Below are positions 3,308-30,309 of a DNA stretch of 30,309 bases, piece after piece (position 1 is the stretch's first letter; each line of letters opens with the position of its first letter). This stretch comes from a virus, in the IMG/VR virus record IMGVR_UViG_3300030108_003061, positions 1 to 30,309 of that record. One strand, written 5' to 3'. The notes beneath the pieces were generated by a model, which worked only from the letters and a program-made list of their open reading frames with translations, searched no databases and had not been told where the DNA came from. The position numbers and the translations under genes are program-made.

Positions 3308-3317
3308 ATTATTCTCC

Positions 3318-4793
3318 TTAATAATATTCAAATTTTGAACGATATATTCGTTCCTCTTCTTCATAGTCATCAGGTGTTACAATAAAACCACCTTGTCTAA
3401 AACGCAGTATAGCTTGTGTCATACTATCTGCCAAGTCATCATGTTCACCATTAGGAAAAGATGCACATTCCTCTACAACTTCCTCTGCAAAATTACTATC
3501 GGGTCTATACACCATACCACTTTCAAACACAGGAGCACAAGCATTCATTCTAGTAAATTTATCAGAACCTCTACTTGGCGTAAATGGTGTAACAGCAATA
3601 CCCATACGAATTAACTCTTGTGTTAAAGGTGTACCAGTAGCTTTTTGCTCAATTAAAATCATATCAGGTTGATAAATTTCTTCTAATTCCTGTGCTTTTT
3701 GTTTTAATTGTGGAAAATCCCACCTACCTCTTACAGCATCCAGTAAAATAATACATTCACCCTCACCATCTTCAGGCTCAAATATACCCCATGTTGTAAT
3801 CGCACTATAATCAGCACGATCTGATTTGCTAAAGGCTGTATCATAACTTTGTATCACATAAGAACAAGTGGGTGGGTCATCACTTTCCCAGATCTTCCAC
3901 CATTCTCGTTTAATAATAGCACCTTCTTCTGCTGTAGGATTCTGCATATACTGTGCATTCCATTTAGGAATAGGAATAGATGCTTTTACACCCTCTAATT
4001 CATCTAAACTCCAAAATTCAGGCCATAAAGGTTTACCAGATGGCATAATAGCTGGGAACTCTACAACTTCCCACTTATCAGCACTCATTTCTGTCTGTTT
4101 ATGCAATACTTTCGCAGTTAAATCCCTAATACTCCAACGAGTCATTACAATAATTAATGAACCACCGGGCTGAAGTCGTTGCCTTGGGCCGGAAGTATAC
4201 CACTCATAGATATTATCTAAAGCAGTTGAACTCAAGGCATCTTGTTCAGATACTGGATCGTCAATAATGCAAAGGTCAGCCCCACGCCCAGCAAGAGCAC
4301 CACCGACACCCACAGCATAATACTCGCCACCACTGGAAGTAGACCATCTGCCAGAAGCTTTTGCATCCGCAGCGAGTCGAACTTCGGGGAATATCTCTCT
4401 AAATTCTCCTGAATCAATAAGATTCTTTACCTTTCTTCCAAACCCCACAGCCAATTCTGCTGTATGCGTTGCTTGAATAATTTTCTTAGTGGGATCCCTC
4501 CCCATAAGCCAAGCTGGGAATAAGTAAGAAGCAAACTCTGATTTAGTGTGTCTTGGTGGCATATTAATGATAAGTCTTTTGATTTTACCATCTGCTACAT
4601 CCTGTAATTTTTGTGCGTAAATTTTGTGATGACTACCTTGTATGAAATTAGGCCAAACAAACTTAACAAAATCCAAAAAACTTTTTTCTCTCTGGTGCCT
4701 AGAGTCAAGCGTATTTAAACGATCAACTAAAGGAGCTATCTTTGCTAGTTCTTCGTCTGTGAAATATTGGCTGAAATCCTCAATTTTGTTCAT
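3318..4793 (-). CDS. terL: Terminase large subunit (packaging ATPase-nuclease)
   Basis: The large terminase powers DNA translocation into the procapsid and cuts the concatemer. The 491 residues show a variant Walker A, PPRHTKS, at 79-85; Walker B LCIIDDP at 174-180; the coupling motif MTRW at 217-220; and an RNase H-fold nuclease domain with acidic residues at Asp318 (SYDTAFS), Glu382 (LIEQKATG) and Asp452/453 (HDDLADS). This order is standard for the family. The ATG overlaps the stop of the preceding 1596-aa gene as TAATG, which implies translational coupling, since no clear ribosome-binding site is seen. The likely small subunit lies about 8 kb away, with accessory genes in between. Confidence 0.96.
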   Translation of the reverse strand: MNKIEDFSQYFTDEELAKIAPLVDRLNTLDSRHQREKSFLDFVKFVWPNFIQGSHHKIYAQKLQDVADGKIKRLIINMPPRHTKSEFASYLFPAWLMGRDPTKKIIQATHTAELAVGFGRKVKNLIDSGEFREIFPEVRLAADAKASGRWSTSSGGEYYAVGVGGALAGRGADLCIIDDPVSEQDALSSTALDNIYEWYTSGPRQRLQPGGSLIIVMTRWSIRDLTAKVLHKQTEMSADKWEVVEFPAIMPSGKPLWPEFWSLDELEGVKASIPIPKWNAQYMQNPTAEEGAIIKREWWKIWESDDPPTCSYVIQSYDTAFSKSDRADYSAITTWGIFEPEDGEGECIILLDAVRGRWDFPQLKQKAQELEEIYQPDMILIEQKATGTPLTQELIRMGIAVTPFTPSRGSDKFTRMNACAPVFESGMVYRPDSNFAEEVVEECASFPNGEHDDLADSMTQAILRFRQGGFIVTPDDYEEEERIYRSKFEYY

Positions 4794-7700
4794 TACATCA
4801 TTGATGCTAGAAAGGTATCAATTGCTTTATTCATTCCAGCTGTCACTTCCCCACCTTCGTTCATTTTAATAGATGCAGTTAAAGTTGACATATCTTTAAC
4901 TTTAGGAGTTTTAGAAAGAGGTCTTTTATCTATGTCCATAGCAAGAAATTTACTAATAACATCTCCATTACTAGGCATACCACCCATATTCATATTTGCA
5001 GTATCTGTTTGTTGATCAGGAACCTTAAAAGTTTCTAATTCACTTATGGGTTTACCTGAATCTCTAAAAGGACTATCTTCTTTAGGATTTAAGAAGATGA
5101 TAGGCATACCAAGGTGATCTCTCTGACTGTTGTTAGAACCTCCACCTGAGGGAGGTAAGTTTGTTCCTGCAAAAGGGTTGTCTCCCTGCTCACCCGGTAA
5201 AAATGGAGGTAGTTGTTGATTGTCATTTGGTGGTAAATTATTAACACCCTCTACTCCTTGCTCACCCGGTAAAAAAGGAGGTGGTTGTTGACCCAAGGGT
5301 ATAGGATCCATGTTAAATAAAGTTCCGGGGTCTGGTTCACCGGGGTCTGGTGGAGTTCCGGGGTCTGGTATTGGTTCATCTGGTATTGGTTCAATGGGTC
5401 TCTGCCCTCGTGCTTCGTTTACAAATCCTTTTTCTTGCACTAAAGGATTATACTCTCCTTTGTAAATTTGAAGAGCCTCTCCGGCGGATACTTTACCATC
5501 ATTATTAATATCATAATTAGGATTGTAATCCATAAGACCCACATTCATACTTAAAGCCTGTTTAGCCAGTGCTTCAAAATCAGGCGTTTCATAAGTCGGT
5601 ACTTCTGAACTACCATCACCTTCACCAGTGCCTGTATCACCTGGATCTGGTGTTACTATAGGCATTGGGATGTTAGTATCATCTTCAAAAGGATTTTCAT
5701 TATCTCTAATCGTCATATCGCTTGCATCAGGAAATGAAAAATCTGTAAACATATCTGGGTTATAAACAACACTAGATTCTATCGGTGAAAAAGTTCCCAT
5801 ACCCTCTGATGATACAGGTGAATCAACAACAGTTCTAGCAATAATATCTTCCATTGGCTCGGTATTAGTATACAAATCTTTGAAGTTAAATAGTGTTTTT
5901 GGTGTTGTTTCATCACCCCCATTGTCATCACTGTCATCACCATCTCCAGTAGAGTCATCATCAACAGAGTCATCTACAGAACTATCACCACCATTATTAT
6001 CAAAAACATTAGATTCAGTTATTTGATCAAAAGTATTGCCAAAAAGATTACTGGTATTACCCTCGGAATCTTGTCCAGTTAAATATTCATTTAAAGTATT
6101 CGTTAAGTCAGTACCACTTAAATTTACGGAACCATCTTTTTTATTGAAAAATCCTGAAGGATCGAAATCAATATCTTCATAATTTATTTTACCAGTAAGA
6201 TAATCTAAAATTTGTTTATAATTAGGTAATTTATCTTGTTGAGAATACAAAAATTGGTTTAAACCTCCTGAACTTTCAACAGCATTGAAAAAAGGTTCAA
6301 GATTAATTTGATTTGAAGCAGGATTTGTAAATTCAAGACCACCTATGTTAAAAGAATCTCCAGTTAAATGATTTTGTATAGATTCTTCACTTACTACTCC
6401 ATCTTCGTTTTTTTCAAAAGGGTCTTCGTCACTATCTGTAGCAACATATCCTGTTTCTGTTTTTGTCAAAGCAGGTTGTACAAAATTTGCGCCGGATCCA
6501 GTTATATTTCCAATTCTATTACCTTCCTCATCAACAGAATAATATTGACTTAATGCTTCGTTTCCACGAACTATATTATAAGATCCTACAGGTATACTCT
6601 CTCCTGTTCCAGAAACATCTACAAAAGTTTGACCATTAGGTGCTGTGTAAAAAATATCATTATCAGACTTATCATCTTTTTTTTGTTCTATAGCCATAGC
6701 TTCTGTTGTTTCAGGGTCATAACCTAAAACACCTGACACATCATATTTACTAGGATCATCTACCTGAAAACGCACATTTTCACCATTTCTGTCTTTTGAA
6801 ATACCACTTACAAGCTGTAAATCACTTAAACTTTTACCATAATATCCCGGCCCTAAACCTTCAAATTCCTTATCGTCATAATCATAATTAAAAACTCTAC
6901 CTGTTTCTGGGTCTTTAAAATATAATCTTTCAACTGTGCCCGTAGCTCCACCAAGATCTTTAATAACATCTTGAATTGTTTGATAACCTTGGCCTTGACC
7001 TTGACTACCAATATAACTAAAAACTTTCATAGGTTCATCTTCAACTTCTGTGGCAGTTTCATTAACTAAACTTTCTGGTGGTAAATTACTTCCTGCAAAA
7101 GGACTATCTCCTTGTTGACCCGGTAAAAACGCGGGTGCTTGTTGACTATCACCACCTTGAGCTTCCATATTTTCATATTTATCTACAATAGCCTTTACTT
7201 CTGCTTGATAATCGGGGTTATTGCCATCAACCACTCCATTTACAGCATATTTATTCATAACAGCCATAATTTCGTTAATTCTATCTGGATTTACAATACC
7301 ACCTAAATTATAACCTTGTAAATTTTGAAATTTATTTTGAAAGAATGAACCTAAACTATTCCCAAAAGGACTACTCGCAAAGGTATTAATATCATTTGGC
7401 TTAACATCACTTGTTCTTACAAAATTCTGAAAAGGGTTAAAAACAGTAGATTCATTGATGAATTGTGAATCATTAGGATTGTAAACACCAAACTGTCTTG
7501 TACCTGTTGGTACACCACCAAAACCGATTTGTGGCATTGATCCAAGTCCTGTGTTTTGATTCTGAAAAGAAACATCAGGAAAAGTAGATTTTGTTAGTTG
7601 ATCAACTTGCTGTGTAAATTCATCTAACTTTTTTTTTATATCACTATCATTCTCTTGCATATAACTTCTGTGAATTTGTTTCGTTAAAGGATATAATAGA

Positions 7701-9583
7701 CGTTGAATATTATCACCACTACTCATACCCATATTCTGCATCATTCCCAAATTAGAAGCGTTAATCGCACCACCTTGGTTTTTGTTAACGATCTGTCTAC
7801 CCCTCTCAAGTTTAGCAATAGCGTCTGTCACAGAACCACCATTGCTAAGACCTAATAATTCCTTAACTTCAGGAGTAAAAACATAACGTGGTGCTCCTGT
7901 AACACCCATTGCTGATTCTATAGGACTCATACCTTCAGGTGGTTTCTTTATATTAAGTCTAATCTGTGCATCCATAAAAGGGTTTTTTATTATTAAATTC
8001 TTTAATTCATCATAAAAATCTTTTTGTAATCCAAATTTCCTACCCATCACATTATCACTCACACGTTCTTTAGGCTGTGGTGGCATTGTGCCCAATAGAC
8101 TAGATCTTGTTGCTTCATTCATAAATTCAGGTGATTGTTGTATTATCTCTAAAGCTTTAAGTAATTGAGAAACATCTTCATCATTAGCTTTAGCTTCTCT
8201 AAATGTACTAAACATTTCTTGCAATTTTTGTTGAGGATTAGCTGATTCAGCTATTATTGCTTTCAATTTCTCAACCATAGGATTACCACCTTCGGTCATG
8301 CCTAAAATTCTTGGTCTATAAATTCCTAAATCACCCATTAAACCACGAATTTTACCTACTATATTTTCTCTATTGTTCAAACTTTCATTTAATTCTTTAA
8401 TCCTACTAGCTAAATTAGATGCTTCTTCTTTAACATTTCCAATATTTCTCAAACCTGATTGATATAAACTTTCAATTTTCTCACCAAGACCCATTGGCTT
8501 TACACCCTCTGTAAGACCTTCGGGTAGATTAGGTTGATCTCCAGAAACATTAGTTAATTTTTCTAATCGATCTTGTATTACGTCTACAATATTACCTTCT
8601 TCTACAATAGGAGCCATATTATTTTTAAGTAAATCTTGCATCTGAAAAGAATCTGGATAAGCTCCAACATCTTCATACTTCATTTTTTCAAGATCTGTTA
8701 TAATTTGTTCAATGTTTGAAGTTGGAGCTTTACTTTGATCTGCTTCCATCTGTCTTTGCTGTGCCATCATTTCTAATAATTTTTCTGGCCCAGCTCTTTC
8801 TGAAACATCTCTTCGATAATTTTCTCTTTCTATCTCTTTCTTAATTTGTTCTAGCCGATTTGCAAAAGCTTCACTGTCTTTGTTAGCTCCTTGAACATCA
8901 AACTCATTACCAAATTTAGGCGTATCTCTTCGACTTTGCTGTGCTTGCCTTAGTAAATCTGCTACAGAATCACGCTTTCTCATTGCAGATGTAGGTGCTG
9001 TTTCCCCTTGAGCTTGGATTTCTAATAATCTTTCTGGCCCAGCCCTTCTTAAAACATCTCTTCTATAACCTTCTTTCATAGCATCAGGTATATTAGTGAC
9101 ATTTGCTTTTTCTGTTTGTGTTTGACCTTCTATAGGTTCATTTTCATATCTGGTCGTATAAATTTCATCTACACCATCACCATTTCTATCAAATGGAAAT
9201 GTCTTTAAACCTTTAGCTCTAGCTTCTGCAAAAGCTCTTTCAAAAGCTCCTAGGGAACCTGAACCCCCTTGCTGACCCCCTCCACCACGAAAAAGACCAC
9301 CAATTCCTTTTAATAAATTCTGTATAAACCCTACAAGACCACCTTCATTCATGTGCATAGGCATAGGAGGTATCATAGATTGGTTCTGAATATTACTCAA
9401 CATCATGCTAAAGTTACTTCTCGCCATAGGATCCGTATTTAACATGGATCCTAACCCCTTGCCCATAGGACTTGGTGGCATTGGTGGCATTGGAGCACCC
9501 ATTGGAGGAGCCATAGGAGGAGGTGCCCCCAAGGGAGGAGGAGCACCAGTTTGAGGAGGTGTAGGAGGAATAGGAGGAATCAT
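4793..9583 (-). CDS. Giant repeat-containing structural protein (1596 aa), function unknown
   Basis: A very large protein of the virion block. Residues 1-50 are almost all Pro, Met, Gly and Ala. Scattered through it are short Asn/x-Gly-Gly motifs, for example HMNEGGLV, MTEGGNPM, LSNGGSVT, YNLGGIVN, MNMGGMPS and KMNEGGEV. Two calcium-loop-like stretches occur, DRNGDGVDEIYT at about 132-143 and DINNDGKVSAGEA near 1360. A segment FLPGEQG-(D)NPFAG-(T)NLPP occurs in three versions, and YRRDVxxRAGPExLLE in two. An acidic low-complexity stretch of Asp, Ser and Gly lies near residue 1210-1240. No enzymatic motif is seen. Such proteins next to terminase are, to my knowledge, typical of uncultured marine phages. 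The start has AGGA about 8 bases upstream. Confidence 0.8.
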   Translation of the reverse strand: MIPPIPPTPPQTGAPPPLGAPPPMAPPMGAPMPPMPPSPMGKGLGSMLNTDPMARSNFSMMLSNIQNQSMIPPMPMHMNEGGLVGFIQNLLKGIGGLFRGGGGQQGGSGSLGAFERAFAEARAKGLKTFPFDRNGDGVDEIYTTRYENEPIEGQTQTEKANVTNIPDAMKEGYRRDVLRRAGPERLLEIQAQGETAPTSAMRKRDSVADLLRQAQQSRRDTPKFGNEFDVQGANKDSEAFANRLEQIKKEIERENYRRDVSERAGPEKLLEMMAQQRQMEADQSKAPTSNIEQIITDLEKMKYEDVGAYPDSFQMQDLLKNNMAPIVEEGNIVDVIQDRLEKLTNVSGDQPNLPEGLTEGVKPMGLGEKIESLYQSGLRNIGNVKEEASNLASRIKELNESLNNRENIVGKIRGLMGDLGIYRPRILGMTEGGNPMVEKLKAIIAESANPQQKLQEMFSTFREAKANDEDVSQLLKALEIIQQSPEFMNEATRSSLLGTMPPQPKERVSDNVMGRKFGLQKDFYDELKNLIIKNPFMDAQIRLNIKKPPEGMSPIESAMGVTGAPRYVFTPEVKELLGLSNGGSVTDAIAKLERGRQIVNKNQGGAINASNLGMMQNMGMSSGDNIQRLLYPLTKQIHRSYMQENDSDIKKKLDEFTQQVDQLTKSTFPDVSFQNQNTGLGSMPQIGFGGVPTGTRQFGVYNPNDSQFINESTVFNPFQNFVRTSDVKPNDINTFASSPFGNSLGSFFQNKFQNLQGYNLGGIVNPDRINEIMAVMNKYAVNGVVDGNNPDYQAEVKAIVDKYENMEAQGGDSQQAPAFLPGQQGDSPFAGSNLPPESLVNETATEVEDEPMKVFSYIGSQGQGQGYQTIQDVIKDLGGATGTVERLYFKDPETGRVFNYDYDDKEFEGLGPGYYGKSLSDLQLVSGISKDRNGENVRFQVDDPSKYDVSGVLGYDPETTEAMAIEQKKDDKSDNDIFYTAPNGQTFVDVSGTGESIPVGSYNIVRGNEALSQYYSVDEEGNRIGNITGSGANFVQPALTKTETGYVATDSDEDPFEKNEDGVVSEESIQNHLTGDSFNIGGLEFTNPASNQINLEPFFNAVESSGGLNQFLYSQQDKLPNYKQILDYLTGKINYEDIDFDPSGFFNKKDGSVNLSGTDLTNTLNEYLTGQDSEGNTSNLFGNTFDQITESNVFDNNGGDSSVDDSVDDDSTGDGDDSDDNGGDETTPKTLFNFKDLYTNTEPMEDIIARTVVDSPVSSEGMGTFSPIESSVVYNPDMFTDFSFPDASDMTIRDNENPFEDDTNIPMPIVTPDPGDTGTGEGDGSSEVPTYETPDFEALAKQALSMNVGLMDYNPNYDINNDGKVSAGEALQIYKGEYNPLVQEKGFVNEARGQRPIEPIPDEPIPDPGTPPDPGEPDPGTLFNMDPIPLGQQPPPFLPGEQGVEGVNNLPPNDNQQLPPFLPGEQGDNPFAGTNLPPSGGGSNNSQRDHLGMPIIFLNPKEDSPFRDSGKPISELETFKVPDQQTDTANMNMGGMPSNGDVISKFLAMDIDKRPLSKTPKVKDMSTLTASIKMNEGGEVTAGMNKAIDTFLASMM

Positions 9584-9629: not shown

Positions 9630-9992
9630 TTAAAATTTTGACAACACATTATCTAATTCTTGCTTAGATTGTTTCAAAATTTTTTCCAAACGAGCCGAAT
9701 CTACGCTACCAATCCCTATAATTTTATCAATTTCGTTCCTCAAAGCCTTCATTCTAGTCAAATCAAAGGGAGAAAAGTCCATTTCTGGCTTTTCGCCACT
9801 GGAAATAGCTGTTAAATGCTCAATCGCAAGCTCAATAGCAATAGGAACCTTCTTTTGATTGGAAATATAGAAGCTATACATCCTTAAACTAATCCCTAAA
9901 AGGTCTGCCATCTTCTCTTGCGTAATATTTAACAGGTTTCTAGCCTTTTCAATCGCAGAACCATCCATTTTGCTATAAGAATGTCGTTTCAT
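9630..9992 (-). CDS. XRE-like helix-turn-helix transcriptional regulator
   Basis: The 120-residue protein carries a Cro/CI-type helix-turn-helix near residues 23-50: ITQEKMADLLGISLRMYSFY followed by a basic turn and a hydrophobic helix (IAIELAIEHL). The C-terminal 45 residues look helical (DLTRMKALRNEIDKIIG...) and may dimerise. I chose the ATG at 9992 rather than one 33 bases upstream because it overlaps the stop of the preceding small gene as TAATG, a coupling used repeatedly in this genome. It is the obvious candidate reader of the TGTAATCATTACA-type palindromes described separately; a degenerate copy lies in the promoter of its own operon, which would allow autoregulation. That link is inference. 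DNA-binding fold: confident; repressor versus activator: unknown. Confidence 0.8.
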   Translation of the reverse strand: MKRHSYSKMDGSAIEKARNLLNITQEKMADLLGISLRMYSFYISNQKKVPIAIELAIEHLTAISSGEKPEMDFSPFDLTRMKALRNEIDKIIGIGSVDSARLEKILKQSKQELDNVLSKF

Positions 9993-10186
9993 TACGTATC
10001 TTCTTTCAAAATTATCTCCTGACATAGTGGTTTTATGTGATAAACACTAGGATTTCTAAACAAAATGTTCGCTTGTCTTACAGCAACAGCTAAACAAGTG
10101 TTGGAATTATCGTGAAACTCCCAGTTTCTAGACACAACCATGCAACTTTCGGCATAAACACTCGAACAAATCAGTATAATAGGCAT
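9992..10186 (-). CDS. Small, possibly exported protein co-transcribed with the HTH regulator
   Basis: A 64-residue protein beginning MPIILICSSVYAESC. The hydrophobic start followed by VYA-ES looks like a short signal peptide with cleavage after Ala; an extended form from TTG at 10207 adds MLIKGMW and would give a lysine in the n-region. AAGGG lies 7 bases before the chosen ATG. Three cysteines remain after the predicted cleavage site. Its stop overlaps the ATG of the HTH gene (TAATG), so the two are probably translated together. I do not recognise a family. The predicted -10 box ends only about 12 bases before the ATG, so the message may be nearly leaderless and the start is uncertain. Confidence 0.55.
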   Translation of the reverse strand: MPIILICSSVYAESCMVVSRNWEFHDNSNTCLAVAVRQANILFRNPSVYHIKPLCQEIILKEDT

Positions 10187-10226: not shown

Positions 10227-10428
10227 ATATTTTGTGATTGTTTGTGGAAAACTTGGTAAAACCTACTGCCTCGCTTGCTTGCATATTGGGGGGCTGCCCC
10301 CTAACCCAAAAACCCGACCGAGAAACCTGCCAGATTCTTAGGGTACCTGCAACTACCTGTGAACAATTGTTCGGACTGTAGCCCCGCTCATTATTGAGCA
10401 TTGCCCTATCAAGGTGTAATCATTGCAT
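10227..10428 (-). other. GC-richer non-coding stretch with hairpins, possible structured RNA
   Basis: About 200 bases between the amidoligase terminator and the next promoter. It is clearly less AT-rich than its flanks and holds short perfect hairpins, GCTCA-ATAA-TGAGC near 10387-10400 and GGGGG-CTG-CCCCC near 10289-10302, plus a full CCGAACAATTGTTC palindrome at 10361-10374 and an operator-like TGTAATCATTGCA at 10415-10427. A 62-codon open frame on the minus strand exists but has no ribosome-binding site and an unconvincing composition. A small RNA or regulatory region is possible; there is no tRNA. Confidence 0.3.
10415..10427. promoter_or_regulatory. Operator-like palindrome, copy 1
   Basis: TGTAATCATTGCA differs by one base from the perfect palindrome TGTAATCATTACA found at 17684. 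It sits immediately beyond the amidoligase terminator. No convincing promoter overlaps it, unlike the other copies. Confidence 0.45.
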
Positions 10429-10476: not shown

Positions 10477-11748
10477 TCATGTTCTATGAGTTAGCTTATG
10501 TACAGTATCATAATCTAACCCAGAAAAAATAGATGCTAAGCCAATTTCATCATCTGATTTTAAAGCTAATGTATTGCCACTATTTACAATAGTTTTCTTT
10601 TGCCAAATATCATTTATCCCATAACCATTTAAATCATAAGCACCATTAGAAGCACCATATGGGTTGTCGTAGCATTGCTGATTATGAGTAGTAATAGCAG
10701 ACTGACCATTGATACCCATAGCTTGCAATCTTTGTCTTAACTCGGATATTTTACGTCTTACACTATTTGGTGTATTGAAACCACAATTTCGCATGATTAA
10801 CTCAGTAGTGATATTTTTATGAGTAAATAAAAGCTCATATAATGGCTTACCTTTATCATTGGCTCTAGCGTTGGGGAATAATTGATCGGGCGTTAAAGCT
10901 TCAATATCATCAAATACAATAGTAGGACTATTTCTAGTCTCAATTCTATTAACCATAGTATGATTAATCATATTAGTAATTAGCTTTACCCATCTAAAAA
11001 TTTTGAATTGATTTATCTGACCGTGATGCTGTCTAAATTCAATTGTATTCTTTGTATCAATAGGCAAACAATTAATAGCATAAAATTTATTATTATTATG
11101 AAATTCAGATAAGCCATCATAAGTAGTTGTTCTTTTCAATATTTCTTTCCAATTAGGATTTACACTTTCTGGATACTTGCAGAAATGGTTATTAATGCCA
11201 TTACGACTAGGGGCTACAATCTTTTCAACTTCTGAAATATCATCATAATATCTAATAATAAAATCCTGAATTGCTAAGATAGGTAACCTTTTATTACTAT
11301 CTAATAGATCCAGAACAATTGCTTTATTATTCTCAGCGTTATTTCTATACCAATTTTGCTGAGATATTGTATTAAAAGTTTGTGGATTAACATCGTCTTT
11401 TAATGGGTTTAATGAAACGTGAACGTGTAAACCCGTACAAGTGCAAACTTCAGCGTTGATAGCTTTCAAAGCGTTTCTTACATTAGTTAAAAGATTAAAT
11501 CCTTTACAATCCAAGTTATCCTTTTCATAAACTTGTGGTGAAATATTAATTTCGCAAACAAGATGATTTGAATTATCTTCGCATCTAGTATGATCATACG
11601 TAACAAATACTTCTGGAATATTGATAGCGTCTATCAATGGTCGCATTAAACGTCTACTAATCATTTTTCCATTTGGCAAAGTGTTATTTGGTACGATAAA
11701 TTCAATTTCAATTGATGTTGCTAGGTTTAAGTTTCTATTGTAAGTCAT
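10477..11748 (-). CDS. Amidoligase_2-family COOH-NH2 ligase with C-terminal winged-helix-like segment
   Basis: The 423-residue protein matches the glutamine-synthetase-like amidoligases (Amidoligase_2) predicted to form amide bonds between a carboxylate and an amine using ATP. Visible family marks are SIEIEFI at 12-18, CEINISP at 65-71, CTGLHVHVS at 104-112, KFYAINCL at 221-228 and TIEFRQHHGQIN at 235-246, where Glu and His residues would bind metal-ATP. Residues 311-345 (KNITTELIMR..., SVRRKISELRQRL) look like an added winged helix. The last 80 residues are polar and unassigned. AAGGAAG lies 8 bases before the ATG. Its substrate is unknown. A GGCT-fold protein, the usual partner of such ligases, is encoded 2 kb away on the same strand. 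Confidence 0.8.
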   Translation of the reverse strand: MTYNRNLNLATSIEIEFIVPNNTLPNGKMISRRLMRPLIDAINIPEVFVTYDHTRCEDNSNHLVCEINISPQVYEKDNLDCKGFNLLTNVRNALKAINAEVCTCTGLHVHVSLNPLKDDVNPQTFNTISQQNWYRNNAENNKAIVLDLLDSNKRLPILAIQDFIIRYYDDISEVEKIVAPSRNGINNHFCKYPESVNPNWKEILKRTTTYDGLSEFHNNNKFYAINCLPIDTKNTIEFRQHHGQINQFKIFRWVKLITNMINHTMVNRIETRNSPTIVFDDIEALTPDQLFPNARANDKGKPLYELLFTHKNITTELIMRNCGFNTPNSVRRKISELRQRLQAMGINGQSAITTHNQQCYDNPYGASNGAYDLNGYGINDIWQKKTIVNSGNTLALKSDDEIGLASIFSGLDYDTVHKLTHRT

Positions 11749-13861: not shown

Positions 13862-14368
13862 TTATGATGTTTTAGGATACCACCATTTACCTTTTCTGTC
13901 ACCAAGTTTATCTGGAGCATAGTTTTTTATCACAGTTTCATTATTAGTAGCATGATCCCGAGCCTTTTCCAAGAACGATAAGCTAAGTCCGAAATCACGA
14001 TAGCCTTCATCAATCGTATGATAATAAAAGCTTGATGGTCTACGAATGGAATCATAATTCATCTGATAGGTCATAAATGGTTTATCTTCTGAATAGTATT
14101 GCATACCAATATATATACGATCATATAGACCATTATCAACACCCTCGTAATGATCTAGTGATTCGATACACCGATCCGTAAGATGCCACATACCTACAGG
14201 TATAGCGTTGCCCTTTTCATATTCTATGTCAGCGACCCCACGAAAGACTAGCTTATAATCTGGCAGATAGAATCCACCCATAGGAATAGCATCTGGGCAA
14301 CGAGATGACATCTGGCTAACATTTAAGTTAGAACCATACGCCAAGTATAATGTATGATGTTTTTGCAT
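13862..14368 (-). CDS. Gamma-glutamylcyclotransferase-like (AIG2/GGCT fold) protein
   Basis: The GGCT fold cyclises and releases gamma-glutamyl groups as pyroglutamate (5-oxoproline). The 168 residues show the glycine loop LAYGSNL at 9-15, SRCPDA near 22-27, and LDHYEGVDNGLYDR near 71-84, in which Glu75 is the expected catalytic acid. Length is normal for the family. AAGGAGGG lies a few bases before the ATG, and the gene has its own promoter, an operator-like site and a terminator. It is monocistronic. The amidoligase gene at 10477-11748 is a natural partner: ligase and cyclotransferase pairs protect and deprotect amines in butirosin synthesis (BtrJ/BtrG). Whether the phage enzyme acts on a peptide, a protein, a polyamine or a metabolite cannot be read from sequence. 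Confidence 0.85.
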   Translation of the reverse strand: MQKHHTLYLAYGSNLNVSQMSSRCPDAIPMGGFYLPDYKLVFRGVADIEYEKGNAIPVGMWHLTDRCIESLDHYEGVDNGLYDRIYIGMQYYSEDKPFMTYQMNYDSIRRPSSFYYHTIDEGYRDFGLSLSFLEKARDHATNNETVIKNYAPDKLGDRKGKWWYPKTS

Positions 14369-14509: not shown

Positions 14510-14538
14510 AATATATATGCAATCATTACATATGTCAA
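14510..14538 (-). promoter_or_regulatory. Promoter of the GGCT-like gene with operator in the spacer
   Basis: TTGACA (14533-14538), 17-base spacer, TATATT (14510-14515) on the minus strand. The spacer holds TGCAATCATTACA (14518-14530), one base from the perfect TGTAATCATTACA palindrome, a classic place for a repressor to block RNA polymerase. Confidence 0.75.
14518..14530. promoter_or_regulatory. Operator-like palindrome, copy 2
   Basis: TGCAATCATTACA between the -35 and -10 boxes of the GGCT promoter; see copies at 10415 and 17684 and the degenerate one at 10203. Confidence 0.6.
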
Positions 14539-14552
14539 GTAATTATTAACTG

Positions 14553-14590
14553 TTGACAAACTATTTATTATATGGTATTATATGGTATAA
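14553..14590 (+). promoter_or_regulatory. First promoter of the plus-strand operon with ATGGTA direct repeat
   Basis: TTGACA (14553-14558), 17-base spacer, TATTAT (14576-14581). The -10 overlaps ATGGTATTATATGGTATAA (14572-14590), two ATGGTA units 10 bases apart. It is divergent from the GGCT promoter. Confidence 0.8.
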
Positions 14591-16176: not shown

Positions 16177-16833
16177 TTAAATTCCTAAAATTAATTGAGA
16201 TTGTACAGATTCGCCAGAATCATACCTTTTTGTATCGCCCTTTGGATAAGGCATAACCCGATAATTAATGCACTTAGTCAGTAGCTTCTTATCTTTCTTA
16301 TTCCCGATTATAAAGATGTATCTATGCTTTTGTGGTCGTTCTACCACTTCATATTTATCTGGATTGTTCTGTCTTTCTTCTAGTGTTGATTGCTCTGTTA
16401 TCGTCTTAGAATGCAGATTAGAACCCCGAATCCTCCATTCTGTTCGCTTTGCACTCATACCTGTGTAAATAAAGTTTGTAGCTTGATAAACGTAGCCTAC
16501 ATGACCCTTACTCGTATCGGCATACGAAACAACGATCTTAGGCTTTTCTAGTAGCTTTAATGATTGTGATATAAGATAAGATGATTGATTCCTGTGATTG
16601 TCTTGCAAGCACAAACGATTTAACTCTATAACCTTATCCTTATGTTCTTCTCCACAAACCCCGATACAAAGGCTATGAGATGGTGGAATACCATAAGTAA
16701 CAACCCCGATAAGTGTTGATTCAAAAAATAAACCAAACGCATCTGTTATATTTGGGATACGCTTGGCATAATGTTTTTCTAATAACCAATTATAGGTTTC
16801 TTTAGATTTTATGGGTAAGACTTTTAATCCCAC
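16177..16833 (-). CDS. Mom-like adenine-modification protein (GNAT-type fold)
   Basis: A 218-residue protein whose central motif, VVSYADTSKGHVGYVYQATN at 101-120 followed by FIYTG, matches the Mom family. Mom of phage Mu converts DNA adenine to a carbamoylmethyl form and so protects DNA from restriction; family members are GNAT-like. Preceding residues (IELNRLCLQDN at 69-79, SYLISQSLKLL at 85-95) fit the same fold, and the C-terminus HRYIFIIG...YPKGD is a conserved-looking end. It starts with GTG; GGAG lies 7 bases before it and the start is inside the previous gene. Modification of this phage's DNA is inferred from the family, not shown. Confidence 0.75.
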   Translation of the reverse strand: MGLKVLPIKSKETYNWLLEKHYAKRIPNITDAFGLFFESTLIGVVTYGIPPSHSLCIGVCGEEHKDKVIELNRLCLQDNHRNQSSYLISQSLKLLEKPKIVVSYADTSKGHVGYVYQATNFIYTGMSAKRTEWRIRGSNLHSKTITEQSTLEERQNNPDKYEVVERPQKHRYIFIIGNKKDKKLLTKCINYRVMPYPKGDTKRYDSGESVQSQLILGI

Positions 16834-17156
16834 ATATGTTCTCCTTCTAGGATCAAAGCATTACCGACTAATGGCATATTAGCCATAGCACTTGCGATTG
16901 TGTTGCCTTTGAACCCATAGATCAAACCTTCCTCATTAACGAGTATCTGCTTAATTTCCTCACCTTTATCATAAAGTTTAGGAGAATGAACCATTTGCAC
17001 ATAACCCCCGACTATATCTTGTGCTTCATCTAAGCTAGGCTTGTGGTCTAAATCCCAATGAACTGTATAAATGACAGTTTCATCATCTTTCTTTTTCTTT
17101 AATTCATCTTTAAATTCAGATGCTTTTACAACTATATTAGTAAGTTTTGAGATCAT
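16824..17156 (-). CDS. DUF3846-family protein
   Basis: The 110-residue protein shows the DUF3846 pattern: DEAQDIVGGYVQMVHSP near 43-59, QILVNEEGLIYG near 70-81, N-x-x-A (NTIASAM) and GNALILEG at 97-104. DUF3846 proteins are common in phages and plasmids and often lie with anti-restriction genes; their biochemical role is not known to me. The ATG directly follows the stop of the 97-residue gene with GGGAG 7 bases upstream, and its end overlaps the start of the Mom-like gene by 10 bases. Confidence 0.75.
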   Translation of the reverse strand: MISKLTNIVVKASEFKDELKKKKDDETVIYTVHWDLDHKPSLDEAQDIVGGYVQMVHSPKLYDKGEEIKQILVNEEGLIYGFKGNTIASAMANMPLVGNALILEGEHMWD

Positions 17157-17450
17157 TTATCTACTCCCTTTATATTTCCAACCAAAAAAATTTGGCTTTG
17201 ATATAGGTTTTAATTTAAATTCTTCTTCTAAACTTTTTCCAGAAACATAGTAATTTTCACTTAACTTGGATAAATCACCGATTAAATGTTCGTATCCACC
17301 TTCATAATGTTTTTTATTTTCCTCACAGATATATTTAAATAATTCTTTATATCTGCCATTATGAATAGGTGTAGCTAATCGATTCCAAAACTCAAATGGT
17401 TTCTTAGGCCAATAAGCTCTTAAATTTTCCATGATGTGATTTCTATTCAT
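17157..17450 (-). CDS. Hypothetical protein (97 aa)
   Basis: MNRNHIMENLRAYWPKKPFE onward, with aromatic/basic content and a C-terminal FFGWKYKGSR. I start it at the ATG with GGAGG 6 bases upstream, which overlaps the end of the previous gene by 8 bases; a longer frame to 17513 would overlap much more and lacks a ribosome-binding site. No family recognised. It belongs to the four-gene operon ending in the Mom-like gene. Confidence 0.65.
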   Translation of the reverse strand: MNRNHIMENLRAYWPKKPFEFWNRLATPIHNGRYKELFKYICEENKKHYEGGYEHLIGDLSKLSENYYVSGKSLEEEFKLKPISKPNFFGWKYKGSR

Positions 17451-17661
17451 CATCAACCTCCATTTCATTAATAATACTTGGTCTACGTAGTGGATGTGGC
17501 AAAACATACTCAAATGATTTCCAACAACTACCTTCTACATATTCATCTTTGTGCAGTAATTTTGAAGCCATTTCGCATTGTGCTTCTGTTTCAAAACTAA
17601 AAACAGCTAATGTGCTATATAAAATAATTTGTTTACCAATTACAGCTCCTTCATATATCAT
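17443..17661 (-). CDS. Hypothetical protein (72 aa), first gene of the Mom-like operon
   Basis: MIYEGAVIGKQIILYSTLAV onward, soluble, ending in the acidic EMEVDDE. AGGAGG lies 5 bases before the ATG, the best ribosome-binding site of the operon. It follows a promoter whose downstream edge carries the perfect TGTAATCATTACA palindrome. No family recognised. Confidence 0.65.
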   Translation of the reverse strand: MIYEGAVIGKQIILYSTLAVFSFETEAQCEMASKLLHKDEYVEGSCWKSFEYVLPHPLRRPSIINEMEVDDE

Positions 17662-17683
17662 TATTACCTCCTGTTCGCTAATG

Positions 17684-17723
17684 TGTAATCATTACATAAT
17701 AACACAGGAAAAAATATAATCAA
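17684..17723 (-). promoter_or_regulatory. Promoter of the Mom-like operon with perfect palindromic operator
   Basis: TTGATT (17718-17723), 16-base spacer and TATTAT (17696-17701) on the minus strand. The perfect 13-bp palindrome TGTAATCATTACA occupies 17684-17696, touching the downstream edge of the -10 box, where a bound protein would block transcription. Confidence 0.6.
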
Positions 17724-17726
17724 TAC

Positions 17727-19913
17727 TTAATTGACATTATCTCTTGCAGTTGTGGGTATGTACTCACCTCTACTTAATGAACCACCTTCAACACCCAACC
17801 AAACCCTTCTGCCTTGTCCAGATAGATTATACTTGGCAATTCTGCCACTTCTTTGCAGATGCTGACAATAAGTATTAAGAGTAGATTGCTCCAGATTACG
17901 CAATACTTCAGGAGCATCTGGTTCTTCAAGCCGAACAATTATAGAGTTTGTATCGCCCATTTGTGTCAAAGCTCTGCCTTCCTCCTCACATTCACGAATC
18001 CAATTGTATAGCCTATCTACACGCATATCCATTTCAGAACCCGAATGTATTGACGATAATTGTTCGGATTTATCCTCTAGTAATCCTGTAAACATATCCC
18101 GAATGAAGTGCTTTATACCCCGATCAGCTGGGCCATTGGACTTCACAACTGCACCATCAAAGAACCTATTTCTATGGTATTCTAGGTTCATAGTGTCTGC
18201 CATTTTCTTACCGACTTTAGGACTTACACCCCATACTGCATAGGCAAAACGAACACCATCAACCAACGCTGACGTACCCCGAATAAGATTTCTTGCTTCT
18301 TCTGGTGTCTTTGGTGGCTCTGTGTCCTTGACTTTAGCCATATGATGACACAACAGGACTGTAGCACCTGTTTCCGAAGCAACTTTAGCCATTAAACTCA
18401 TCAGAGCAGCCCCTGCTGCGGGGTCTGCATTAACATCAGCATGAACAAAAGAAGCTAATGGATCAAATATAATGAGCTTCAGGTTTTTAATCTGCAATAA
18501 TTGTTCGTAATATTTATCGAACTCTTCTCCACTATGATAACTCTTGTCCGAACCTTGTTGCATAATAGGAAACACCCCACCATAATTAGGTAAAGGCACG
18601 ATCTTCATATCATGTTCATAGTTAAACCTATCGCCCGAAGGATCAAGCCTAGTTACCCTTCTGTGTATTTCAGCTTCATCATCCTCTGCTGTAAAGATTA
18701 CAGTATTCCCAAACTCATTAACAACACCACCGAAAGATGTTTGCATAGGTTTCCCCGAAGCTATCTTCATAGCTAGATCTAATGTCATCATACCTTTACC
18801 AGAATCACCCGCAGCTGCGAATAAAGCAGGCACTCCCAGAGGCATGATGTTACCAATCAAGAACTTTTGTTCGGGTGCATTGTGGTCAAAACGAGATACT
18901 AATAGCGAATCATCCAGTAGATTGACAGACTTCTGTGCCTTATGTGAAGCGTCATTTAAGAACTCCCGAACATTAAAGTTTTCTGATATGGCATCAAAAG
19001 CATCCCACTTCTCAGGTTTCCCGATTGGTGGCGTTAGCATAGTTACCGATTTAGCGTTAGCTTGCAAAGACAACTGTTGTACAAGCTCTGCAACCCTCTT
19101 TCCCGATTTGTCATGGTCAGGCCATATAATAACTTCTTTGCCATTGAGAGGCGAAAAATCGTAGTTAGGAGCTGAATTTTTAGATAACATCCCCGCCCCA
19201 CCCATATGACAGGTAGCAGTAAACCCCATTTGGTTAAGAGCATCTGCACACTTTTCACCTTCTACCCATATGATACGATCAGATGAAATGATGTTCGGTA
19301 TGTTATATAAAGGTCTAATCTCTGGCATTTTTGGTGTCGGATTGTTAGGTACATACTGCCTAAACTCCTTTTTAGGCTTACCATGTGTATCTGTTATGAT
19401 GTCACCATTAGCATCACGAACATTATATCTCCGAACAATTGCTATAGTTTCGCCATCAGCAGACAAATAAGTATGCTCACCATCATGGGGTGTATTGATG
19501 TCATATCGCTGTGTAAGTGCCTGATTAAATGGATTTGTTGGTGTATACCTCTCCGAATCCCGAACAATTACCTTATCCTCCCCTAGATATTGAGAGAAGT
19601 AATCCTTAACTTCTGGTAAGGTCATACCCCGACCCTCCATCATAATCTTTACAATACCACCTACACCTTCACCTCCATTAAAGTCTGTGCCTTGCATGAA
19701 GTGTGGGCCGGGTGTTATGTCTATTTTTAATGAACTTCCCTCTTCACCCCGAAGTGAACCCAACATAAATTGGGTGCCTCTGATTTTACCATTCGGGTAA
19801 GTTTGTTTTAAAACATCTACCTGTACTGAAACAGGAACGCTTTCACTAATTTTATTGACTAATTCTGTAGGTGTAATCCCATATTTAGTCTTGTCAAATG
19901 ATAGAACACGCAT
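17727..19913 (-). CDS. TOPRIM primase fused to RepA/RecA-type replicative helicase
   Basis: A bifunctional replication enzyme that primes and unwinds the fork. From the chosen ATG (728 aa) the TOPRIM domain shows WVEGEKCADAL near 216-226 and WPDHDKSGK near 264-272, giving the Glu and Asp-x-Asp metal ligands. The ATPase follows with Walker A GDSGKG near 369-374, TAEDDEAEIHRR near 408-419, Walker B LIIFDP near 480-485 and LLCHHMAKV near 520-528. The C-terminus (NLEQSTLNTYCQHLQRSGRI) resembles a winged helix. No zinc-binding primase domain is obvious. The frame stays open upstream to a TTG at 19994 that overlaps the preceding gene; I prefer the ATG, which has AAGG 9 bases before it, but a 27-residue extension is possible. 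Several CCCGA and CCGAACAATT motifs lie inside. Confidence 0.88.
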   Translation of the reverse strand: MRVLSFDKTKYGITPTELVNKISESVPVSVQVDVLKQTYPNGKIRGTQFMLGSLRGEEGSSLKIDITPGPHFMQGTDFNGGEGVGGIVKIMMEGRGMTLPEVKDYFSQYLGEDKVIVRDSERYTPTNPFNQALTQRYDINTPHDGEHTYLSADGETIAIVRRYNVRDANGDIITDTHGKPKKEFRQYVPNNPTPKMPEIRPLYNIPNIISSDRIIWVEGEKCADALNQMGFTATCHMGGAGMLSKNSAPNYDFSPLNGKEVIIWPDHDKSGKRVAELVQQLSLQANAKSVTMLTPPIGKPEKWDAFDAISENFNVREFLNDASHKAQKSVNLLDDSLLVSRFDHNAPEQKFLIGNIMPLGVPALFAAAGDSGKGMMTLDLAMKIASGKPMQTSFGGVVNEFGNTVIFTAEDDEAEIHRRVTRLDPSGDRFNYEHDMKIVPLPNYGGVFPIMQQGSDKSYHSGEEFDKYYEQLLQIKNLKLIIFDPLASFVHADVNADPAAGAALMSLMAKVASETGATVLLCHHMAKVKDTEPPKTPEEARNLIRGTSALVDGVRFAYAVWGVSPKVGKKMADTMNLEYHRNRFFDGAVVKSNGPADRGIKHFIRDMFTGLLEDKSEQLSSIHSGSEMDMRVDRLYNWIRECEEEGRALTQMGDTNSIIVRLEEPDAPEVLRNLEQSTLNTYCQHLQRSGRIAKYNLSGQGRRVWLGVEGGSLSRGEYIPTTARDNVN

Positions 19914-25676: not shown

Positions 25677-25874
25677 ATGCCAGATATAAGTAAATACAGA
25701 AGTATAGCTTTACCTTTAGACACTTATAATAAATTGTCAAAGATTTGTCAGGAAGAACATAGGGGTATGGGAAAACAAATGACTAAATTTATAGATGATT
25801 ATTACAAAACGATATTTAAAGAAGAAGAGGAAACTAAAAACGAACTAACTTCTAAAGGAGTTGGCTCTTTATAA
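25677..25874 (+). CDS. Small ribbon-helix-helix-like DNA-binding protein
   Basis: A 65-residue protein, MPDISKYRSIALPLDTYNKL onward. KYRSIALPLDTYNKLSKICQ reads as the beta strand and first helix of an Arc/CopG fold, and MGKQMTKFIDDYY as the second helix, followed by an acidic tail. ATG 25677 has GGGAAGG 8 bases upstream; the longer frame from 25629 has none. It is the only plus-strand gene in this half of the window. Its stop overlaps the tail of the 1000-residue virion gene by 6 bases, end to end. It is a candidate reader of the ATGGTA direct repeats, one of which precedes it. The fold is inferred by pattern. Confidence 0.65.
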   Translation: MPDISKYRSIALPLDTYNKLSKICQEEHRGMGKQMTKFIDDYYKTIFKEEEETKNELTSKGVGSL

Positions 25875-28871
25875 TAGGCCTGCACTACCTAACCCACCCA
25901 ACAAAGTATTAGCTACAGATGGATCTTTAGATGCTCTATCTCTTAATGAATCTTCTTGAGCTTTTTTTCTAATTCTTTCAATCAATCCTAATGGCTCTGT
26001 TCGTGTGGGTGCTACAGGTGGTGGTGATTGTATTAAATCAAACATATCCATTAAACTCATGTCAGAAGTAGGATCTGGTCTTGGAATATCAATATCAACA
26101 TCTGTTCCTAAATCTGTGCCAGCTCCTAATCTTGGTATAACTTGCTCTGTAGTCTTTCTAGTAGTGCTTAAACCTTGTCTAGATATTTCATCATTAATGG
26201 CAGTGTTAAGAGCCATAGATTTACTTTCAGCAGTTTTTTTACCTAAAGCTTCTTGAACATCTAAATATTTTGTTAAATTTTCTTTATTTGCTAAAAATTT
26301 TGACGTAAAGAAAAATCTTGTTAATTTAGCAAAATTCTTAATTGGATTTATACTTATATTAGCTGCAGCTATTGCACCTTCTTTTGTAAAATCATTTAGG
26401 AAGATTAAATCTTCAGCTAACTCATTTAATCCTTTTTGTCCTTTTTCTCCTAATATCTCTTTTATGATACCATTTTTTTGATACCTTTTTACTTGTTCAG
26501 AAAAAGCTCTAGCAGCAGATGTATCAGAAAAAATAGTATCATCAATAGGCTCTAGTATTCTCTCCATTGTTCTTTGCTTAATATCATTAAAAGCATCAGA
26601 TCCTTCACCAAAAAAGTCTTTTACAGCTTTTATCTCACTTCTTGTAATACTAGGACTACTTAATAAATCTACAGCTTCTTCAGCAGTAATTCCAGTTGAG
26701 TTAGGATCTCTTAATTTTTGTAAAACTTTAGATTTAAAAGCTTGTGTGGCATCAATATTTGCTTGATTAAGATTTTTAAAAGTTTGAACAATGTTATCTG
26801 AAGGACTTAATTTTATAATATTTTTTAAAATATCATCATCAAGTTTATTTAATCCATTAAAAGCAATAGCTTTAGATAACCTATCAACAGCATCAAAATT
26901 ATTACCAAATAAAGCTTTAGCTGTGGCATTTCCTTGTTTATCTAACCTTGTTATTTGATTACGAAAAATTGTTCCATTAAATTTTCCATATTCACCTCTA
27001 GATTTTGAAAGTGCATCATCTAAAAAAGTCCTTGCTAACATAGATCTTAAACCTTCAGCATCATCAGGTTTTACAGCTTCTAAAACTGCTGTTATTCTTC
27101 TTGGAGAATTTTTTTTAACAATTTGGTCATAAAATCTATCTATACTAAATTTTTCTCCTTGTTCAGAAGCTGCTCTTCTTACGTTATTAATTAATCCAAA
27201 TTCCTCTAATTCTTCAAATTTTTTAAGACCAGTTCGATAATGATCCATTGCTTCTTTTCTTTTTTTAATAGCTTCTTTAAAAATTGGTTCAGAAGTTTTT
27301 TTCATTCCTTTAATAGGAACTAATTCACCAGCATCTATCAAATCATCCATAGCTTGACGAAACATTTGTAATTCATTTCGTGTTGTAGGCCCTGCGGTAA
27401 AGTCGAACAATTCATCATTAATACTTTTTCTTGCTCTTGCTAATTTATAAAAAGATGTTTGATCTCCAAGATTACGAACAATTGCAACAATTCTTTTAGT
27501 TTGATCTTTTAAAACATCAGTAGTTCCAAATTGATCTTCTAAATCTTTTATTAAATTTTTTAGAGGTGTTGTATCAAATACTTCTAATTGACCACCAACA
27601 ACATCCTTACCCCCTATTTTAAAAGTTCCATCCACTTTAGCTAATAGTTCATCTATGGTTCTAAAAGCTGTAGCTGAATCCTCTGAGAAACTTTCAAAAG
27701 CACTAGTAATACTTCTTAATGCAGATTCATTTACATCCACACCTTCTTTAATACTTGTTTCAAGAATATCAATACTATCATCTATAGCTTTCAAAGTTGC
27801 ATCTTGAGCCGATTTTTGTATAGAAAAAATTTTATCTAATTTGTTATTAGCTACATTACTAATATTTTCAGCTGCTTCCTCTAAACTTTTACCCCCACCA
27901 AATTCATCAATTAATCTCTTTTTTTCATTTAAAGAAAAATTTACATTTTTTTCTAATCTTGCTTGAGATTTTGCTACTGTTTCAGCTACTTTCTGTGGAT
28001 AAGATATAAATTGTGGGGCACCAACAGCTTCAAAACTAGGTAATCCCTCTTTATCTATTATTCTTCTTCCTATAGCGACTTTTTTAGAACCTATTTCATC
28101 TGTTGGTTTAGTAACTTTGCCTAAAGCTCCTTTACCTAAACCTAATATACCACGACCAGCTCTTACTACTAAATCACCTATTACGCTTCCACCAGCACCT
28201 ATTGCTCCTTCTATAGCAACATCTTTAGCTACTTCTTTTCCTGTTTGTGTTTGTATACCAAGTAAAGATTCTATACCTTCTTCAATAGCCTGACCTAAAG
28301 CAGAACCACCACCACCTCCTAAAGCAGCCCCACCAATTGTGCCAGCCCCCGGTATGAATGAACCTGCTGTTCCACCAGCGATAGCACCTGCCGTACCCAA
28401 TATCGCTTCAGGTAGAATACCAGCTAAATCTGCCACATCACCAAAAGAAAATCCTTTATCCTCTATAACTAGATTTTTACCTATAGGATCCATTCCTCTT
28501 TTTCTTTGACCTTCTTCTGTCAAAGCTAATCTACCTTTACTATCGGTAGTAAATCCTTCCTTACCTACAAGCTTTGTTAATATAGCTTCCTTATCGCCTT
28601 GTGTTTCTCCAAAAGACAACATAGCTCTAAGTCCACTACCAGCACCTGTTTCGTAATCAAAATCAGCATCTTGGTCTTTTTCTTCTTTTTCTTTAACTAT
28701 ATCTTCTAAAGATTGACCGGGTTTATAGCCTTGAAAAGCTGTTGCTGTTAGTAAATCACTTATATCATCTGGTTTTTCTTCTAAAGCTTTTAAAATTTGT
28801 AATTCTGCTTTATCACTTAAATTACCAGATTCAAGTCTTTTTAATAATTGTAATTCTTGTTGTTCGTTCAT
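25869..28871 (-). CDS. Large virion protein, probable internal/ejection protein
   Basis: A 1000-residue protein. After a charged N-terminus, residues 140-250 are Gly/Ala-rich and hydrophobic (ILGTAGAIAGGTAGSFIPGA, then GGAALGGGGGSALGQ, later GRGILGLGKGALG), like channel- or membrane-inserting segments of podovirus ejection proteins. The rest, about 280-950, is long alpha-helical and Lys/Asp/Leu-rich. No enzyme motif is visible. The start overlaps the stop of the preceding gene as ATGA. The two form a pair at the edge of the virion block, which suits internal core proteins, but this is inference from composition and place. Confidence 0.75.
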   Translation of the reverse strand: MNEQQELQLLKRLESGNLSDKAELQILKALEEKPDDISDLLTATAFQGYKPGQSLEDIVKEKEEKDQDADFDYETGAGSGLRAMLSFGETQGDKEAILTKLVGKEGFTTDSKGRLALTEEGQRKRGMDPIGKNLVIEDKGFSFGDVADLAGILPEAILGTAGAIAGGTAGSFIPGAGTIGGAALGGGGGSALGQAIEEGIESLLGIQTQTGKEVAKDVAIEGAIGAGGSVIGDLVVRAGRGILGLGKGALGKVTKPTDEIGSKKVAIGRRIIDKEGLPSFEAVGAPQFISYPQKVAETVAKSQARLEKNVNFSLNEKKRLIDEFGGGKSLEEAAENISNVANNKLDKIFSIQKSAQDATLKAIDDSIDILETSIKEGVDVNESALRSITSAFESFSEDSATAFRTIDELLAKVDGTFKIGGKDVVGGQLEVFDTTPLKNLIKDLEDQFGTTDVLKDQTKRIVAIVRNLGDQTSFYKLARARKSINDELFDFTAGPTTRNELQMFRQAMDDLIDAGELVPIKGMKKTSEPIFKEAIKKRKEAMDHYRTGLKKFEELEEFGLINNVRRAASEQGEKFSIDRFYDQIVKKNSPRRITAVLEAVKPDDAEGLRSMLARTFLDDALSKSRGEYGKFNGTIFRNQITRLDKQGNATAKALFGNNFDAVDRLSKAIAFNGLNKLDDDILKNIIKLSPSDNIVQTFKNLNQANIDATQAFKSKVLQKLRDPNSTGITAEEAVDLLSSPSITRSEIKAVKDFFGEGSDAFNDIKQRTMERILEPIDDTIFSDTSAARAFSEQVKRYQKNGIIKEILGEKGQKGLNELAEDLIFLNDFTKEGAIAAANISINPIKNFAKLTRFFFTSKFLANKENLTKYLDVQEALGKKTAESKSMALNTAINDEISRQGLSTTRKTTEQVIPRLGAGTDLGTDVDIDIPRPDPTSDMSLMDMFDLIQSPPPVAPTRTEPLGLIERIRKKAQEDSLRDRASKDPSVANTLLGGLGSAGLL

Positions 28872-30309
28872 ATGTCTAGACCATATTTTTTTCTAAGACG
28901 TATTCGTTCCTCTTGCTCTTCAGGACTTAATGTTCCAAAGCTTCCATATAATGTTTTGGTTACATTTCTTTTCTGAAACCTATCTAACATTTCTAAACCA
29001 GCGAATATTTGTCTCTCTTTCTTTACAATTATATCATTAAAAAGTTGATTTACTTTTTCTACTAAAAGATCAGGATTATTAAAAATGGTTCTATCTCCAA
29101 CAATATCTGCAACAAGTTTACGATCAGCATCAGATATAGTTTTACCAGCTTCTCCTAATATTGCTTTAGCATTTTGAGCTTGTAATTTTCTCAAAAATAA
29201 TTGTAATTTTTCTGTTGGATTTGCTCCTTTTGATACATCAATACCAAAAGCACCCGCTAAAGATTCTGCTTTATCTAAAGCAAATCTAAATACAGTTGCA
29301 TCTTTAGCTAAACCTAAACCCTCTGCAAATTTACCTTTTGCTTTTTGAAGATCTTGTAAAGCGAGAGCAAAAGCCTTATATTGCTCTACACCATCTCCAA
29401 CCATTATTGGAGTGCCATCAGGATTTGTATTTACATTAGGATCATAAACACGAATATTAAATAATGAAGAACCTGCTTCATCATCACTTCCTATTAAATT
29501 AATATCTCTAGGATTTTTAGTTAAATAAAGGTCAGCAGCTTCTTTAGTTTCCATAGATTTACTTAAAACATCACGAAAATCACTAGCAGGTAGTAAAGCA
29601 TAGTTATTACTAAATTGTGGATCACTTTGAAGTTGTGCTAATTGACCATTTGAAAATGTCATCAGCCTACCATTACCATAATTATTTATGTAAGCAGATG
29701 TAGTCAAACCACCTTTTCCATCTGTGGGTACGACAAAATATTCTTTTGTTTCATTTAATTTTTTAGAAGCTGCTGCTGCTGTGGCTGCATCTTTTGCTTG
29801 AGCTTGCATGGCATATTTACCTGCAGCTATCATATTAGCCTTTGCTTCTTTTTGTGCCTCTTTTAATTCAGGCATAGCTTTCTGGGCAGATTCCCCTACT
29901 GCACCTAGTATCTTACCTACATTAAACCCTTTACCCGCTCTGTTTTGCATTAGACCAAGACCTAGAGCCATAAGAAAATTACTTTTATCAGGTTTACCTG
30001 ATATATCTACACCTGTAGCCTTTGCAAATTCTTTTTTATAAAAATCTAAATCTCTTGCTCCTCCAGTAACACCAGAACTTTTAGTTTGTTGACCACTAGA
30101 ATTTAAAAACTCTTTCATGGCACCAATAAAACCATCATTTACAGCTTTTTGCACATTTTCTGGAGTTGGAACAGTTCCTTGCAAAAGTGCTTCTTCTTTT
30201 GCTCTAAAATCTTCTTTTTCTTTTCCGAACAATTGTTCTTCTACTTGTGCTTCTTTTAACAAAGATTCTTCTGCTGATGCTTTTTCTTCGGTGGGTGTTG
30301 GTGGTCTAC
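28868..30309 (-). CDS. Virion-associated protein, 5' end cut by window
   Basis: The frame stays open to the right edge, so the N-terminus is missing; the first residues in view read RPPTPTEEKASAEESLLKEA. The protein is helical and Ala/Lys-rich (AMPELKEAQKEAKANMIAAG), with a possible beta-rich middle (YFVVPTDGKGGLTTSAYIN). Near the C-terminus it has AILGEAGKTISDADRKLVAD, closely matching the repeat of the EF-hand protein at 2879. It overlaps the 1000-residue gene by 4 bases. Likely a minor virion or internal protein; no named family recognised. An internal TTG at 30262 could be mistaken for the start. Confidence 0.75.
   Translation of the reverse strand, partial: RPPTPTEEKASAEESLLKEAQVEEQLFGKEKEDFRAKEEALLQGTVPTPENVQKAVNDGFIGAMKEFLNSSGQQTKSSGVTGGARDLDFYKKEFAKATGVDISGKPDKSNFLMALGLGLMQNRAGKGFNVGKILGAVGESAQKAMPELKEAQKEAKANMIAAGKYAMQAQAKDAATAAAASKKLNETKEYFVVPTDGKGGLTTSAYINNYGNGRLMTFSNGQLAQLQSDPQFSNNYALLPASDFRDVLSKSMETKEAADLYLTKNPRDINLIGSDDEAGSSLFNIRVYDPNVNTNPDGTPIMVGDGVEQYKAFALALQDLQKAKGKFAEGLGLAKDATVFRFALDKAESLAGAFGIDVSKGANPTEKLQLFLRKLQAQNAKAILGEAGKTISDADRKLVADIVGDRTIFNNPDLLVEKVNQLFNDIIVKKERQIFAGLEMLDRFQKRNVTKTLYGSFGTLSPEEQEERIRLRKKYGLDI

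Follow-up and report, generated by a model that had tools for sequence, protein, structure and literature searches.

The window analysed here, a stretch of 30,309 nucleotides (30.3 kb) out of a 30.8-kb viral contig, carries an operon of four minus-strand genes in the order 72-aa, 98-aa, DUF3846 and mom, which we infer to be transcribed together. The genes are as follows, given from the first to the last of the operon.
17443..17661, minus strand: 72-aa protein without clear family, opening the operon
17157..17453, minus strand: 98-aa protein, with a longer TTG reading from 17513
16824..17156, minus strand: DUF3846-like protein of 110 aa, whose stop overlaps the mom start
16177..16833, minus strand: mom, encoding a Mom-family DNA adenine modification enzyme of 218 aa, with a GTG start

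The GTG of mom is the earliest start codon downstream of the preceding in-frame stop. The frame is intact, with neither a stop nor a frameshift, and copies at 97-98% identity are present in three other contigs. The original prediction had recognised Mom by the stretch YADTSKGH...YQATNFIYTG, which is found in the translation as quoted, and a profile search for Mom similarity had been set beforehand as part of the test that could refute it. This search returned clear matches in Pfam, PHROG and PDB. The protein matched Pfam PF25680 at 1e-41 (143 bits, cut-off 27.1), with an alignment that covers profile positions 2-202 of 202, i.e. the full domain above the curated threshold. PHROG_1384, "Mom-like DNA modification protein", was matched at 1.8e-59. 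Mom of phage Mu (PDB 8bv8) was found at 1.7e-13 with the single sequence and at 2.2e-19 with a profile, and it was the sole solved structure at E < 0.001 in the sequence and profile searches. The AlphaFold2 model of the 218-aa protein (pLDDT 88) had 8bv8 as its top Foldseek match (E 3e-12, TM ~0.65-0.70), indicating a GNAT-type fold as in Mu Mom.

Conserved residues were examined across 71 aligned Mom sequences, Mu included. Every invariant position of this alignment is kept in the window Mom, among them H21, Y22, E70, R73, S85, D106, Y116, Q117, N120, H141, R171 and Y172. The Mu counterpart of S85 in the alignment is S124; the title of PDB entry 8bv8 describes S124A as an inactive mutant, and the deposited sequence has Ala at that position. 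As the protein belongs to the family by sequence, profile and fold, and keeps the invariant residues, an active Mom is likely, and we hold with high confidence that 16177-16833 encodes a Mom-family enzyme, probably a working one. Its enzymatic activity and a protection from restriction are predictions from its membership of the family.

Two other readings of the protein were weighed. The GNAT fold itself, the other GNAT acetyltransferase structures that rank after 8bv8 in the fold search, and the 'acetyltransferase' annotation of some Mom homologues would also suit an acetyltransferase whose substrate is protein or a small molecule, without DNA modification. This is very improbable, given that Mu Mom is alone among solved structures below the E-value threshold, that the Pfam score is far over its cut-off and that the Mom-invariant residues are kept. 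The second reading concerns chemistry. The window Mom is ~31% identical to Mu Mom and has ~37 fewer N-terminal residues, so that chemistry and specificity could differ, and a Mom-family enzyme adding a different N6 group or recognising a different target sequence would fit these figures; the putative catalytic positions are however identical to those of Mu Mom, and we regard such a departure as unlikely.

Mom homologues occur in at least 277 GenBank phage records and relatives in at least 505 IMG/VR stretches, so the window Mom belongs to an already known family, and among phages such a gene is nothing unusual. At L050 and L081, two Mom-family open reading frames neighbour each other within one contig. 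The relatives compared share a replication block of Holliday junction resolvase, Sak4, helicase, PD-(D/E)XK and primase genes. In the window and its closest relatives mom lies after a three-gene insert behind the primase; in L016-L019 and L023 it follows the primase immediately, as does a shorter match in L121. It is found 1.6 kb further along in L102, and 6 kb upstream, with another gene on either side, in L104. No mom was found in 23 further contigs that have the replication block and at least 3 kb behind the primase, nor was Mom found in the searched isolates with close terminases (HTVC027P, 023Pt_psg01 and DSL-LC04). The description of mom as accessory, made from the sequence of the window alone, is in line with this varying position and with its absence from many relatives that share the replication block. 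The comparison supports mom as an accessory gene of a marine phage whose slot is variable: among relatives it takes four or more positions or is absent. Maricaulis was considered as the host and set aside as too weak, its sole basis among bacterial genomes being a 5.8-kb contig binned as Maricaulis.

The DUF3846-like protein scores 25.3 bits against PF12957, just under the cut-off of 27.5, and nine of its nine aligned relatives match PF12957; its predicted structure was unusable (pLDDT 46). The 98-aa protein has no clear family, is present in the closest relatives only and gave zero matches among GenBank phages. The 72-aa protein is strongly divergent among relatives whose Mom is 97-98% identical, which suggests fast change or recombination at this spot. 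A comparison of the mom operon with known defence systems gave no match. The original prediction had set mom together with DUF3846 and two small unknown genes. The adjacency is real, but DUF3846 as a dedicated Mom partner was rejected, since it occurs in related contigs both with Mom and without a Mom that could be found.

Upstream of the operon we found a predicted promoter and an operator-like palindrome, the latter with near-copies elsewhere in the window. These features, together with a candidate regulator, are listed below.
17696..17723, minus strand: predicted promoter TTGATT-16-TATTAT, from a consensus scan (9 of 12 bases)
17684..17696, unstranded: palindromic operator-like site TGTAAT-N-ATTACA, TGTAATGATTACA, covering the end of the -10 and the likely transcription start
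14518..14530, unstranded: operator near-copy TGCAATCATTACA, within the -35/-10 spacer of a leftward promoter at 14538-14510
10415..10427, unstranded: operator near-copy TGTAATCATTGCA, flanked by the terminator of the amidoligase gene and the HTH-regulator operon
9630..10025, minus strand: HTH_3-type regulator (PF01381 8.3e-07; PHROG transcriptional regulator)

The consensus match at 17723-17696 is weak, and such matches are no commoner in the region than expected by chance. The palindrome overlaps the last base of the predicted -10. A perfect palindrome in the promoter was indeed part of the original prediction, and TGTAAT-N-ATTACA at 17684-17696 is kept in three related contigs (L002-L004), with a single mismatch in one. 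Between the window and L004 the palindrome differs at its central base only and the following leader at several; in L002 the upstream DNA differs, and the sequence it has in common with the window starts at about the palindrome. The near-copy at 14518..14530 adjoins a rightward promoter at 14553, and the leftward promoter around it lies upstream of a gamma-glutamyl cyclotransferase gene. L002 has a site at the corresponding position, and L178 one with 2 mismatches. Sites with at most one mismatch number four in the window against 0.3 expected, although these statistics are partly post hoc as the motif was derived from the window itself. Three of the four are intergenic, vs a 7% intergenic share of the window; the fourth lies within the primase gene.

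The recurrence of the site is read most simply as a small regulon of the phage with mom among its members, in which one regulator would act at TGTAATNATTACA and at two other control regions; on this sequence evidence we consider the case for it to be about evenly balanced. The HTH protein at 9630..10025 is a candidate for the regulator that binds the operator. The 6-1-6 core GTAATNATTAC presumably resembles Fur-family boxes, which would suit binding by a Fur/Zur-type metalloregulator of the host instead of the phage HTH protein. The palindrome is found, however, at three phage control regions, one of them beside the phage's own regulator operon, and we judge a host Fur/Zur protein to be distinctly unlikely.

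Several further genes of the window may be recorded here. A putative amidoligase (10477-11748, minus strand; PF12224 4.3e-06) and the gamma-glutamyl cyclotransferase-like protein (13862-14368, minus strand) lie in the same phage region. Three large proteins of 1596, 1000 and at least 464 aa (4793-9583, 25869-28871 and 28868-30262, minus strand) had no Pfam match, and PHROG returned nothing for them beyond a weak excisionase match of the 1000-aa protein over 50 residues. A 163-aa protein encoded between the terminase and portal genes (2879-3370, minus strand) showed weak EF-hand/dockerin-like matches below the cut-off.

The start of mom overlaps the end of the DUF3846 gene by ~10 bases, and both the overlap and the Shine-Dalgarno (SD) sequence are kept in L002-L004. 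A strong RNA structure is predicted at this position.
16814..16865, minus strand: RNA hairpin at the mom start, its loop carrying the SD AAGGAG and its stem base the GUG

The 101 nt around the GUG have a predicted folding energy of -24.9 kcal/mol (z -3.2), and none of 200 shuffled sequences folded as well. Among the 30 gene starts of the window the mom start ranks first for structure (-16.2 vs -8.6 for the second), and five of 743 control starts were as extreme after GC correction. The hairpin is conserved in L002-L004; the four closest sequences are near-identical, which leaves no room for covariation. A search of the region against Rfam gave no match. When the coding sequence around the start was recoded synonymously, 12% of the versions folded at least equally well, so coding accounts in part for the strength of the hairpin. 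In other phages, strong predicted stems also enclose the Mom starts at L104:6074-6796 (-17.8 kcal/mol) and L085:2980-3630 (-15.4 kcal/mol). Structuring as a general property of mom starts was set aside, the Mom starts as a whole showing no clear excess of structure (mean -0.29 SD, P 0.04).

The hairpin may be a by-product of the coding sequence, with mom simply translated by coupling to DUF3846. The recoding result points in this direction. So does the high frequency with which Mom genes overlap an upstream open reading frame at their start, seen in 33 of 59 distinct start regions. Set against it are the lead of this hairpin over the other window starts by a factor of two, the rarity of equally extreme control starts and a layout shared with the Mu structure, in which the loop holds the SD and the GUG lies at the stem. 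We place the by-product explanation just short of evenly balanced. That the hairpin serves as a lock on mom translation is put forward tentatively. Taken with the recurrent operator palindrome, the hairpin is suggestive of the tight timing of mom that had been proposed from the sequence.

The mechanism that we propose is as follows. A phage regulator at the operator would probably switch the operon of two small genes, DUF3846 and mom, and also act at the two other control regions. After infection the operator would be released and the operon transcribed. The hairpin at the mom GUG would probably limit Mom translation further, until ribosomes translating the overlapping end of DUF3846 open it and mom can be translated. 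Both the identity of the regulator and the way in which the hairpin is opened are derived from sequence features and are to be read as candidates. From what is known of the family, the GNAT-fold Mom would modify adenines of the phage DNA at N6 with a (methyl)carbamoyl-type group prior to packaging, and the modified adenines would block cutting of the DNA by host restriction enzymes. Restriction-site avoidance was considered as an indirect sign of such protection and set aside: the ratio of observed to expected 6-mer palindromes is 0.72 in contigs carrying mom and 0.65 in those without, with overlapping ranges and non-independent contigs.

Pelagibacter phages HTVC027P and HTVC023P have a terminase large subunit 55-61% identical to that of the window, and HTVC027P, unlike the window, lacks Mom; no primase match in either phage was among the matches listed. 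Mom-like proteins of PHROG_1384 from Listeria A511-type, Bacillus Riggi, Proteus PM87 and Acinetobacter JeffCo phages are of the same family as the window Mom, with 40-43% identity over 95-98% of the protein, whereas the phage groups and the mom neighbours are different.

Mom is among the best known anti-restriction DNA modifications, and phage Mu is the case in which its control has been elucidated in detail. The proteins of the window and of Mu are alike in fold, in the invariant residues including the S124 equivalent and in a conserved YPK, and both genes have a GUG start adjoining an RNA stem, a predicted one in the window. In Mu, untimely or high expression of mom results in cell death (PMC4461284), and the mom GUG sits in the stem of a translation-inhibition structure that is opened by Com (PMC6483171). 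We folded the Mu mom region in the same way and obtained the layout predicted for the window. In both cases an upstream gene overlaps mom; the overlap is ~10 bases in the window vs ~50 in Mu com/mom, and the upstream partner is DUF3846 in the window and Com in Mu. By sequence, no four-cysteine (CCCC) motif as in the Com zinc finger was found in the three upstream operon proteins, and no Dam GATC sites were found in the promoter region 17662-17760. With neither a Com-like protein encoded nor a GATC in its promoter, the operon does not have the control system of Mu as such. The likeness of the hairpins would be convergent, because in the alignment Mu Mom has its further N-terminal residues ahead of the point where the window Mom begins.

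The enzyme gene itself is ordinary, and its regulatory wrapping is the interesting part; the divergent Mom nonetheless offers a homologue for comparing chemistry and target specificity. More speculatively, and in our view less likely than not, mom may be held by a two-layer lock that evolved independently of Mu, consisting of a phage-wide operator and a Mu-like GUG hairpin, the latter being opened without Com, either through ribosomes that complete DUF3846 or through the DUF3846 protein. If so, hidden mom starts would be a recurrent answer to Mom toxicity. A Com-less mom with an operator and a predicted start hairpin in an unrelated marine phage would offer, beside that of Mu, a second system in which to study the taming of a toxic modifier.
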